DNA of 64,000 bases from Paracidovorax konjaci (GTDB lineage: Bacteria > Pseudomonadota > Gammaproteobacteria > Burkholderiales > Burkholderiaceae_C), in the NCBI RefSeq assembly GCF_900112675.1, contig NZ_FOMQ01000001.1:248001-312000 (forward strand), written 5' to 3'. Made by a program: the position numbers and the translations under genes. Under the pieces are notes generated by a model, which was given only the letters and a program-made list of their open reading frames with translations, searched no databases and had not been told where the DNA came from. Shown here piece after piece: positions 7,085-55,425 of the stretch (positions are counted from its first letter, which is position 1; each line of letters begins with the position of its first letter).

Positions 7085-7528
7085 TCAGTTGCGTTCGCCT
7101 TCGTTCGGCGCGACATACACCTGCAGCGTGCCCGCGCCGAAGTCCGGCGGACTGATTGCGGCCAGGCTCACCGGGCGGTGGGCCGCCACATCGAATTTCC
7201 ACGCGAAGGTCTTGTCTCCATTGCGGAATGCGATGGTCTGGCCGCATTTCACGTTGAGCGTCCGCGTCTGCGAGGCATCGACTGTGCGCGCTGCATCCGT
7301 TGCGCTCGCGGGCCGGCCCAGGGTGGACTGGCCGCTGGCGTAAGCCGTGCCTTCGACCGCGCCCCCAGAACGGGAGGCGGCGGCCGGGGCGGTACCTGCG
7401 TGGTCGGGGTGAGAGGTGTAGCCCGACTCGGTGGGGACGCTGTGGATGATGCCGCTGGCAAAGCCGGCCGCCGGCAGCAGGGCGGCGCAAGCCAGGGCGG
7501 CAGACAGGGAGTGGCGGATGCTTTTCAT
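7085..7528 (-). CDS. CzcE-like heavy-metal resistance periplasmic protein
   Basis: Protein of 147 residues with an N-terminal Sec signal (MKSIRHSLSAALACAALLPAAGFAS). The mature part ends in a small beta-rich domain, TLNVKCGQTIAFRNGDKTF followed by AWKFDV and LQVYVAPNEG, which resembles the CzcE family of periplasmic copper-binding proteins of Cupriavidus. A single Cys is present. It is transcribed divergently from a response regulator of the metal type, with a strong palindrome between the two starts, which suggests that the two-component system controls it. RBS AGGAG lies ahead of the start. The metal bound is not evident from sequence. Confidence 0.72.
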   Translation of the reverse strand: MKSIRHSLSAALACAALLPAAGFASGIIHSVPTESGYTSHPDHAGTAPAAASRSGGAVEGTAYASGQSTLGRPASATDAARTVDASQTRTLNVKCGQTIAFRNGDKTFAWKFDVAAHRPVSLAAISPPDFGAGTLQVYVAPNEGERN

Positions 7529-7633
7529 GGATGTCGATCTCCTGAAGTGGATGTGGATGAAACGGAAGCCATGTCTTGCGGCGATGGCCTTGGGACAGCA
7601 CCGACTCTAGAAAGGTGTCCCCGACAGGCCGCC

Positions 7634-7667
7634 GCCGCGGAGATGACAAATTCGTCATCTCCGCGGC
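7634..7667. promoter_or_regulatory. Perfect 14-bp-arm palindrome, CopR/CusR-like operator
   Basis: Arms GCCGCGGAGATGAC (7634-7647) and GTCATCTCCGCGGC (7654-7667) are perfect complements around a 6-base spacer. The core ATGACAAATTCGTCAT differs by one base from the CusR/CopR-type box ATGACAA-N2-TTGTCAT. It sits 26 bp before the response-regulator start and about 105 bp before the divergent CzcE-like gene, so it could serve autoregulation and joint control. Function is inferred. Confidence 0.72.
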
Positions 7668-7693
7668 AGTGCGCCCTGGGCACAATCCGGCGC

Positions 7694-8392
7694 ATGAAAC
7701 TGCTGTTGATCGAAGACGAGCCCAAGTTGGCGGAATACCTGCGCAAGGGCCTGGGGGAGGAGGGGTTCGTGGTCGATGTGGCGCACGACGGCGTGGACGG
7801 GCTGCACCGTGCCACCGAATACACGTACGACGCCATCGTGCTGGACCGCATGCTGCCCGGCATCGACGGTATCGCCGTACTGGCTGCCCTGCGCACCGGC
7901 CGGCAGACGCCAGTGCTCATGCTCACGGCCCAGGGCCGGGTGGAAGACCGTGTGCAGGGCCTGCAGGCAGGCGCGGACGACTACCTCGTCAAACCCTTTG
8001 CATTCTCCGAGTTGGTGGCACGGCTGCATGGGCTGCTGCGGCGTGCGCGGGGCATCGCAGCGCCTGCAGAAGCCACGGTGCTGCGCATGGCCGATCTGGA
8101 ACTGGACCTGATCCGCCGCAAGGCGGTGCGCGCCGGGCAGCGGCTGGACCTGACTGCCAAGGAGTTCAACCTGCTGAGCCTGCTGTTGAGGCGCCAGGGC
8201 GAGGTCCTTTCGCGCACCGAACTGGCGGAGCAGGTGTGGGATATGAATTTCGACAGCGAAACCAACGTCGTCGAGGTGGCCGTGCGGCGCTTGCGCGGCA
8301 AGCTCGATCAGCCTTTCGAGCGGCCCCTGCTGCACACGGTGCGCGGCATGGGCTATGTGCTGGAGCCACGGCCCGCGGAAATGCAGCCATGA
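7694..8392 (+). CDS. OmpR/PhoB-family response regulator, heavy-metal type
   Basis: Protein of 232 residues. The receiver domain shows the acidic pair in LLIEDEP, phospho-acceptor Asp51 in IVLDRMLPG, Thr in MLTAQG and Lys100 in DYLVKPF; the C-terminal half is a winged helix with LDLTAKEFNLL and VVEVAVRRLRGK, ending VRGMGYVLE. This is the CzcR/CopR/IrlR/CusR subgroup. It should bind the palindrome just upstream and activate metal-response genes. The stop overlaps the kinase start in ATGA, so the pair is translationally coupled. Start 7694 is preceded by CACAAT only 8 bases upstream and has no clear RBS, which hints at a leaderless or very short-leader message. Confidence 0.92.
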   Translation: MKLLLIEDEPKLAEYLRKGLGEEGFVVDVAHDGVDGLHRATEYTYDAIVLDRMLPGIDGIAVLAALRTGRQTPVLMLTAQGRVEDRVQGLQAGADDYLVKPFAFSELVARLHGLLRRARGIAAPAEATVLRMADLELDLIRRKAVRAGQRLDLTAKEFNLLSLLLRRQGEVLSRTELAEQVWDMNFDSETNVVEVAVRRLRGKLDQPFERPLLHTVRGMGYVLEPRPAEMQP

Positions 8393-9777
8393 CGGCTTCG
8401 CTCGGGGGGGCGCTGTCGCGCTGGCTGGCCGTGCAGACGGTGCTGGGCCTGGGCGTCGTGTGCGCGGCGGTGTACCTCGTCATCGCGCTGACGCTCGCGC
8501 AGCGGCAGGAGGAATCCATCGCCAGCAAGGAGCGGGCGGTGGCCGAGGTGCTGGCAGGGCACCGGCCGGGGCACGATGCGCAGGCAGGCCACATGCTCGA
8601 CGACATGCTGGCAGGGCACGGCGAACTGGCGTTGCGCGTGACCGATGCCCGGGGCGAGGTCGTCTATGTCCGCAATCCGGCACTCCTGTCGTCGCAAGAC
8701 CAGGTCCGCCGCTCGATCGAGGTCAACGGCCCGCCGGAGCGCCCGCATGCCTTCTTCGCCACGCTGGTGCTCGACACCCGCGCCGACGACGCGTTGCTGC
8801 GCCGGCTGGGCTGGACGCTGCTGATCGCCGCGCTGGCCGGAGCGGCAGCCGTGTCGCTCGGGGCTTTCTGGCGGGTCCGGCGCGGCCTTTCGCCGCTGCG
8901 GCAACTGGTCGCACAGACCGCCGGCATCGCGGCCAGGAGCGGCGGCCGGCGCCTGGACGGCTCCGCCCAGCCGACCGAACTGCAGCCGCTGATCGGACAG
9001 TTCAATGCGCTGCTGGACCGCGTTGCCGGCGCCCATGACCAGTTGGAGGCGTTCAACGCCGATGCGGCGCACGAGCTGAATACGCCCCTGGCTACCCTCA
9101 TCAGCAGTTGCGAACTGGCTTTGCGCCGCTCGCGCGGGGAGGAGGAGCTGCGTGAGACGCTGGCGTCCAACCTGGAGGATCTGCGCCGGTTGGCCGGTAT
9201 CGTGGCCGATATGCTGTTCCTCTCGCGGGCCGATCGCGGCACGGCGCTGCGCTGCGAGAGTGTGGCGAGCCTGGCGGCGCTGGCCGGCGAGGTGCTCGAG
9301 TTCCACGAGGCGGCCCTCCAGGAGTCCGGCCTGCGGATCGCCATCGACGGCGACGCGAGCATGGCGGTGGATGCCCGGCTGCTGCGTCGTGCGTTGTCGA
9401 ACCTCGTGGGCAATGCCACTCGCTACGCAGTGCCGGGCTCCGTACTGCAGGTGCGCATAGTGCCGGAGCCCGCTCCTGCAGTTGCCGTCCGGTTGTCGGT
9501 GCGCAACGAGGGCGAGGGCATCGCGGCAGAGCACCTGCCGCGCATCTTCGACCGCTTCTACCGTGCCGACAGCGCACGGCCGCAGGCCGGCCGCCACCAT
9601 GGCCTGGGCTTGTCCATCGTGGCGGCGATTGCACGCATGCACGGCGGCGATGTGTATGCCGTGTCGGACGGTGCGGGCGTGGAAATCGGCCTGCGACTGC
9701 CCGCCGAGCGGCCCGGGCACGGGCATGGGACCGTGTCATCATGGGCCCATGCCCGCGATGCCGTTGCCACCCCCTGA
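8389..9777 (+). CDS. Two-component sensor histidine kinase, heavy-metal type
   Basis: Protein of 462 residues. Transmembrane helices at about 12-35 and 142-163 flank a short periplasmic sensor loop; a HAMP-like segment (RRGLSPLRQLVAQT) follows, then the dimerisation H-box with His228 in AAHELNTPLATL, an N box (LSNLVGNATRYA), and G boxes NEGEGI and GLGLS. The H-box reads HELNTP where most CusS/CzcS relatives have HELRTP. The kinase should sense an envelope signal, probably metal, and phosphorylate the upstream regulator. The C-terminal tail (HGHGT...) is His-containing and overlaps the start of guanine deaminase by 29 bases. Confidence 0.9.
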   Translation: MTASLGGALSRWLAVQTVLGLGVVCAAVYLVIALTLAQRQEESIASKERAVAEVLAGHRPGHDAQAGHMLDDMLAGHGELALRVTDARGEVVYVRNPALLSSQDQVRRSIEVNGPPERPHAFFATLVLDTRADDALLRRLGWTLLIAALAGAAAVSLGAFWRVRRGLSPLRQLVAQTAGIAARSGGRRLDGSAQPTELQPLIGQFNALLDRVAGAHDQLEAFNADAAHELNTPLATLISSCELALRRSRGEEELRETLASNLEDLRRLAGIVADMLFLSRADRGTALRCESVASLAALAGEVLEFHEAALQESGLRIAIDGDASMAVDARLLRRALSNLVGNATRYAVPGSVLQVRIVPEPAPAVAVRLSVRNEGEGIAAEHLPRIFDRFYRADSARPQAGRHHGLGLSIVAAIARMHGGDVYAVSDGAGVEIGLRLPAERPGHGHGTVSSWAHARDAVATP

Positions 9778-48180: not shown

Positions 48181-48298
48181 CGGCGCGGATCCTCGGAAAG
48201 GTACGGAGCGAGCGGGCGGAAGAACCGGCGCAGGCAGGGCGGAAATGGCGACGGCGGCACCGCGCGATTGCGGTGCCGCCGTCAGCCGGTGCGGTCCG

Positions 48299-55399: not shown

Positions 55400-55425
55400 A
55401 AAGAGGCGCCGCGGCGCCTCTTTTT
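55400..55425 (+). terminator. Rho-independent terminator after the S49 peptidase gene
   Basis: AAGAGGCGCC-GC-GGCGCCTCTTTTT, a strong stem and T-run 42 bases past the stop. Confidence 0.88.

Follow-up and report, generated by a model that had tools for sequence, protein, structure and literature searches.

Within the window, by which we mean the whole 64,000-nt stretch of DNA analysed, positions 7634-7667 read GCCGCGGAGATGAC-AAATTC-GTCATCTCCGCGGC, a palindrome whose arms are perfect over 14 bp and which lies between a divergent czcE-like gene and a heavy-metal two-component system. The features of the locus are listed here from left to right.

7085-7528, minus strand: CzcE-family protein, 147 aa, probably periplasmic (PF16986, 68.7 bits, cut-off 30)
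7604-7609, minus strand: predicted -10 of the czcE promoter, TAGAGT, a divergent hexamer conserved in relatives
7621-7625, plus strand: direct half-site 2, CCGAC, intact, 22 bp from the left half of the dyad
7632-7636, plus strand: place of direct half-site 1 (C..[AT]C in the family), 11 bp from the left half of the dyad
7634-7667, no strand: palindrome with 14-bp perfect arms, -60 to -27 relative to the regulator ATG
7634-7640, no strand: left GC arm, GCCGCGG, its symmetry not kept in relatives; 7634-7636 overlap the place of half-site 1
7641-7660, no strand: conserved dyad AGATGACAAATTCGTCATCT, columns -10 to +10, with the 16-bp box at 7643-7658
7661-7667, no strand: right GC arm, CCGCGGC, none of its columns exceeding 0.2 bits
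7681-7686, plus strand: predicted -10 of the regulator promoter, CACAAT, 22 nt after the box and ending 7 nt before the ATG
7694-8392, plus strand: heavy-metal response regulator, OmpR/PhoB type (TIGR01387 cztR_silR_copR, 307.2 bits, cut-off 279.2)
8389-9777, plus strand: heavy-metal sensor histidine kinase (TIGR01386, 328.9 bits, cut-off 292.55)

An earlier reading, made from the sequence only, had placed the site between a CzcE-like gene and a two-component system, and this placement is borne out by matches over the cut-off to PF16986, TIGR01387 and TIGR01386. The czcE-like product passes the gathering score of PF16986 and is the sole match to that family in this genome. The box thus adjoins a regulator of the cztR_silR_copR subfamily, in which D51 is, by reading, the likely phospho-acceptor. 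The NCBI models of CusR-type and HprR-type regulators align with the regulator from residue 1 on both sides, which supports the start codon.

The sequence-only reading also gave the palindrome exactly, in both sequence and coordinates. The central six bases add two further pairs and one A/C mismatch, for 16 of 17 pairs (94%). Perfect 14-bp arms with a loop of at most 6 bases occur at two places in the window, 7634-7667 and 48250-48283, and 60 dinucleotide-shuffled versions of the window gave one such case in total, so that the palindrome is beyond chance, yet with a companion in the same window. No further copy of the 34-mer was found in the window at up to three mismatches. That the site is an ordinary intrinsic terminator or a chance palindrome is hardly credible: the second perfect repeat in the window is what can be said for this view, but the site has no T run, it lies between the starts of divergent genes and not between their ends, and the conservation of its core at a fixed place, described below, refutes this explanation for the core. 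The repeat at 48250-48283 is itself GC-rich, with a 6-base loop and no T run, of a kind that shuffles rarely give. Elsewhere in the window, a 12-bp perfect palindrome at 55400-55423 is followed by a T run and has the look of an intrinsic terminator.

The upstream regions of 91 related regulators were collected, 77 from a family search and 14 further ones from 17 genomes of the genus. The family search covered 250 genomes, 62 of which had a match at E 1e-95, and all 77 rows among the matches listed were used; the genus search used 16 regulators among the matches listed, leaving out L104-L110, L117-L123 and listed rows without a locus. A box, ATKACN6GTMAT, was chosen after inspecting these upstream regions and matches the AgrR consensus in the literature. 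Allowing one mismatch, 68 of the 91 regions carry it within some 115 nt upstream of the gene, and 60 carry it exactly, compared with means of 0.36 and 0 in shuffled upstream regions; this conservation strongly supports the earlier proposal of a CusR/CopR-type core between czcE and the two-component system. No box was found in the remaining 23 regions within the stretch searched. Nine of these hold a variant, ATGACARTTYGGACAG (L142, L157-L160 and L162-L165), which looks like an altered right half-site, and nothing was recognised in the rest. Among 80 named, more distant relatives, one of which had less than 110 nt upstream, the box was found in 24 (at most one mismatch, within about 160 nt upstream), including representatives of Pseudomonas, Herbaspirillum, Limnobacter and enteric bacteria. 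Three paralogues within the genus (L114, L115 and L116) have a second box type, ATTAC.GAT..GTAAT, with a -10 at 21 nt behind it; about 25 nt more, with a purine-rich, Shine-Dalgarno-like stretch, lead on to the start codon. For the analysis of single columns, 11 of the 68 aligned operators were dropped at 75% identity or more, among them that of the sister species G009, which left 57 non-redundant operators less than 75% alike.

A comparison with characterized systems shows where this operator-like site belongs. AgrR of Cupriavidus metallidurans is reported to bind ATKACANNNNTGTMAT, and mutants show that additional direct half-sites, in phase with it, also count (PMC7380067). This inverted repeat fits the site here at 11 of its 12 specified positions, the one departure being C for T at the eleventh base, where C is the commoner base in relatives (35 of 57 operators). 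The likeness to the AgrR box of copA2-copR2 thus takes in a 6-4-6 inverted repeat with one mismatch, divergent promoters, a position of about -60 to -26 and a poor -35; the reported 35-nt AgrR footprint covers -60 to -26 of the copR2 start, from which its authors infer class II activation, and AgrR is described there as activating in its unphosphorylated form (PMC7380067). Unlike copA2-copR2, the divergent partner here is czcE-like rather than copA2, and the site has long symmetric GC arms. The core had been described earlier as one base from the known CusR/CopR box. This holds for the inner 16 bp of the Escherichia coli CusR box AAAATGACAAnnTTGTCATTTT (PMC11195947), which differ by one base, but not for the whole box, as its outer AAA/TTT are absent here and the three outer bases are GAG/CTC. 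As in E. coli, the site lies between the regulator and a divergent target, with a seemingly small regulon, although that target is czcE-like and not cusC(F)BA. The service of one palindrome to two divergent operons, predicted here, is also a feature of the Pseudomonas palindrome reported as common to CusR, CopR and CzcR (PMC11195947); in the six box-carrying Pseudomonas/Stutzerimonas loci that we examined, 57-78 nt separate the box from the start codon, in contrast to 51 nt here. Finally, czcE adjoins a heavy-metal two-component system in czcRSE of C. metallidurans as well (PMC10127602, PMC9045368), but there it is reported to lie downstream of czcS in the same orientation and to have its own promoter, whereas here it is divergent and the operator would be shared.

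Alignment of the operators on the box allows the parts of the palindrome to be judged separately. Ten columns are conserved by construction, the box being the aligning element; columns -10 to +10 round the centre read AGATKACAAATTYGTMATCT, and those of them outside these ten owe nothing to the alignment. In 5000 unaligned draws the largest column information was 0.29 bits. Strong islands stand to the left of the dyad at -42 to -47 (the minus-strand -10, TANAGT, here TAGAGT, with an A at -38 beside it), at -30 to -26 (CCGAC) and at -19 to -15 (C..[AT]C), and to its right at +32 to +36 (ACAAT of the plus-strand -10). Weaker columns of 0.2-0.3 bits are found at -41, -39, +22 and +43 to +45, the last three being the usual start codon. 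None of columns +11 to +21 and -11 to -14 exceeds 0.2 bits, and left-right pairing at offsets 11-17 equals the permuted expectation in the 57 non-redundant operators.

The symmetry therefore has two parts of different standing, one that relatives keep and one that they do not. Counted outward of the 16-bp box in all 68 operators, it extends by 0 pairs in 17, 1 in 20, 2 in 24, 3 in 4, 4 in 1 and 9 in 2; the nine-pair extension occurs only in this genome and its near-identical sister G009 (regulators 99% identical), and the other 66 have 0-4. The next relatives retain the arms partially: in G005 the left arm is present letter for letter and the right arm matches at 4 of 7 positions; in G001 the arms match at 4 of 7 (left) and 5 of 7 (right). 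On this alignment the long symmetry is a local peculiarity atop a conserved dyad, and we read the perfect GC arms as a lineage-specific extension. The arms might be functional in the sister pair, a longer dyad strengthening the binding of a second dimer or another factor. The 34-bp symmetry is near the 31-35 nt reported for AgrR footprints (PMC7380067), and it is unchanged between the two species, in which 8 of 165 intergenic bases have changed elsewhere. At that rate, however, 34 unchanged bases would, by our estimate, be expected by chance roughly one time in six, the pairing in relatives is at the permuted expectation, and the left arm runs into the place of half-site 1, all of which make this an unlikely explanation.

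Conserved C's at -4, -15 and -26 are separated by 11-bp steps, or about one helical turn. The dinucleotide [AT]C is found at -16/-15 in 47 of the 57 operators and at -27/-26 in 44, with a frequency of 9.6% in other flank columns, and at the mirror places on the right in only 3 and 4 of 57. The operator is therefore lopsided, with three half-sites in one direction and one in the other, in an array that resembles the in-phase direct repeats of AgrR, whose relevance was established by footprinting and mutation (PMC7380067). The same distance separates a GT half-site from the -10 at both promoters, being 27 bp from +4 to +31 on the regulator side and from -15 to -42 on the side of the divergent gene. 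While extra in-phase half-sites at 11 and 22 bp are frequent in relatives, only the 22-bp one is intact here; half-site 1 is a degenerate CCGCC without the [AT]C of the 47 operators, and because of this the multi-half-site model fits this genome worse than it fits most relatives. The long arms had been taken earlier as a sign of cooperative binding, a view that finds no support in columns +11 to +17 and -11 to -14, all below 0.2 bits, or in pairing no better than permuted. Judged from the alignment, the cooperativity signal that is present lies instead in the direct-repeat half-sites on one side of the dyad and not in the longer symmetry.

Promoter elements lie at similarly regular distances. 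A -10-like hexamer (at least 4 of 6 positions) follows the box at a distance of 21-23 nt in 46 of the 68 operators, compared with 1.1 in shuffles, and in the non-redundant set such hexamers are found at +30 to +32 for the regulator in 39 of 57 operators (18 are without one) and at -41 or -42 for the divergent gene in 40 of 57 (17 without). Fifty-eight of the 68 operators have some hexamer carrying A2 and T6 in the range searched; among these, 55 have the candidate -10 beginning 21-23 nt past the box, and in 48 it ends 5-8 nt short of the start codon, with gaps of 25-56 nt in the other 10. In 49 of the 68 operators the box begins 49-52 nt upstream of the start codon. A Shine-Dalgarno-like four-mer was found in 4 of these 49 short-spacing operators, equal to the shuffled expectation (8%), in 6 of the 19 others and in 11 of the 23 boxless regions. 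The regulator here has no Shine-Dalgarno signal before its ATG and its candidate -10 is only 7 nt away, and its mRNA is therefore predicted to be leaderless, which would mean a 5' UTR under 5 nt. The box overlaps the -35 place of this predicted promoter, in which the sequence gives a -10-like CACAAT and a poor -35; a strict sigma-70 scan of 7400-7800 found no promoter and no -35/-10 pair, a result compatible with a missing -35 that lends the prediction no support.

The arrangement differs in the named, more distant relatives. There a distance of 68-90 nt separates box and start codon in 19 of 24 cases, and a hexamer with A2 and T6, several of them weak, is found 20-25 nt behind the box in 17 of 24. 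Fourteen of these hexamers stand 24-43 nt from the start codon and one stands 14 nt from it; for the remaining two, from an Acidovorax and a Massilia, the gap is 6 nt. That the -10, where found, stays 20-25 nt behind a box often more distant from the start codon is what one would expect of a box and -10 acting as a unit, and we infer that the leader changed between the groups while the promoter did not. In C. metallidurans, copR2 starts are reported at 147, 75 and 46 bp upstream and the nearest copR1 start at 56 bp upstream (PMC9045368), in contrast to the leaderless mRNA predicted for the regulator here. Leaderless mRNAs are reported in that organism for the regulators arsR, ompR, ohrR and zniR (PMC7563307); in the parts of the literature covered by our search we found no description of a leaderless copR or cusR mRNA.

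A second role suggested earlier for the palindrome was that of an RNA hairpin in the leader of the regulator mRNA, in which case transcription would start upstream of 7634 and the stem-loop would control translation or mRNA stability. An RNA of 7610-7700, if made, would have a folding energy of -49.9 kcal/mol (z -6.05; shuffles -29.9, sd 3.3) and would include a second stem covering the ATG, and copR2 of C. metallidurans is reported to have several starts, at the distances given above (PMC9045368). However, the predicted -10 of the regulator lies downstream of the palindrome, and the predicted czcE start is past its other end. With starts placed by prediction at about 7694 for the regulator and about 7597 for czcE, neither mRNA would contain the palindrome, which is thus probably outside any RNA leader, although minor upstream starts are possible. 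The arms are not kept beyond one near-identical sister, and relatives show none of the kept GC-arm pairing that a leader hairpin or attenuator would have, their pairing being at the permuted expectation. There is no terminator-like site, and Rfam returned only one microRNA match (E 0.07; 25.2 bits, where the gathering score is 94). The hairpin, which we regard as very unlikely, was set aside on conservation and promoter anatomy despite its stable fold. In a longer transcript the second stem, which is GC-rich and spans 7669-7695, would cover the -10 together with the ATG; judged by eye, the sister species lacks one base pair of this stem.

The reading that we prefer, with a probability of roughly 85%, is that two divergent promoters share the palindrome as an operator of the CusR/CopR/AgrR type, to which the adjacent response regulator binds. 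A regulator dimer would occupy the 20-bp dyad (7641-7660), the right half of which may stand in for the -35 hexamer that the regulator promoter lacks; the regulator would thus activate its own leaderless mRNA by class II activation in a positive feedback. Further subunits on the direct half-sites 11 and 22 bp away would extend the complex towards the czcE promoter, where the G of half-site 1 is placed 27 bp from the czcE -10, matching the distance on the regulator side. Sequence, conservation, spacing and gene families are the observed side of this model, from which we infer binding, activation, start sites, the active form of the regulator (phosphorylated or not) and the metal (copper, silver or zinc). 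As far as its sequence goes, the operator is ordinary in kind, and its extended symmetry is real though not conserved.

A search of the genome (5.08 Mb, 36 contigs) for further copies, as had been proposed earlier, found the degenerate box ATKACRRATYYGTMAT exactly at one place, this one, and with one mismatch at two more. By reading, neither of the latter resembles the promoter of a metal gene; one seems to fall where a coding frame ends and the other in a gap between frames. One contig with a one-mismatch box, C30, also carries L201 (2604-3167, minus strand), presumably the end of an RHS-repeat protein. The looser ATKACN6GTMAT has five exact places genome-wide, of which only 7634-7667 has the AAATTC centre. 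One exact tight box and one PF16986 match fit a regulator whose targets are mainly its own divergent pair, as is reported of CusR in E. coli and P. paraeruginosa (PMC11195947).

In many relatives the divergent frame encodes, by reading, a small protein with a signal-peptide-like beginning; these frames were called heuristically (at least 60 aa, a Shine-Dalgarno-like signal preferred), and several are plainly non-genes. Ten divergent proteins, picked by hand from 14 and not a random sample, gave one CzcE, six DUF4148, one CusF-like and two without a Pfam match. A GYTxHPxH segment occurs near the N-terminus in 13 of 68 divergent frames (L094-L097, L100-L103, L134, L135, L140, L166 and L194), and its carriers include proteins with a CzcE domain (L097) and with DUF4148 (L100 and L134). 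CzcE or DUF4148 follows the common segment in some of these proteins, as if the C-terminal part had been exchanged.

By this analysis a conspicuous palindrome becomes a predicted operator whose borders are exact, the parts of interest being the predicted leaderless architecture and the lopsided array of half-sites. For the family to which the window belongs, we give even odds to a more general picture in which autoregulated metal regulators are expressed mostly from leaderless mRNAs, under a lopsided operator of an inverted pair and two direct half-sites, the leader having been lost or gained with the promoter unchanged, and in which the sister pair has swapped one direct half-site for a long perfect dyad. 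In such an operator each divergent promoter would meet a half-site of like relative orientation 27 bp from its -10, and in the distant named relatives (Pseudomonas, Herbaspirillum, Limnobacter, enterics) the spacing of box and -10 would be about equal with the start codon further on. A widespread metal regulator is probably translated from a leaderless mRNA in this group, and usually not in its distant relatives. If so, this would bear on how the switch responds when normal translation initiation is impaired.
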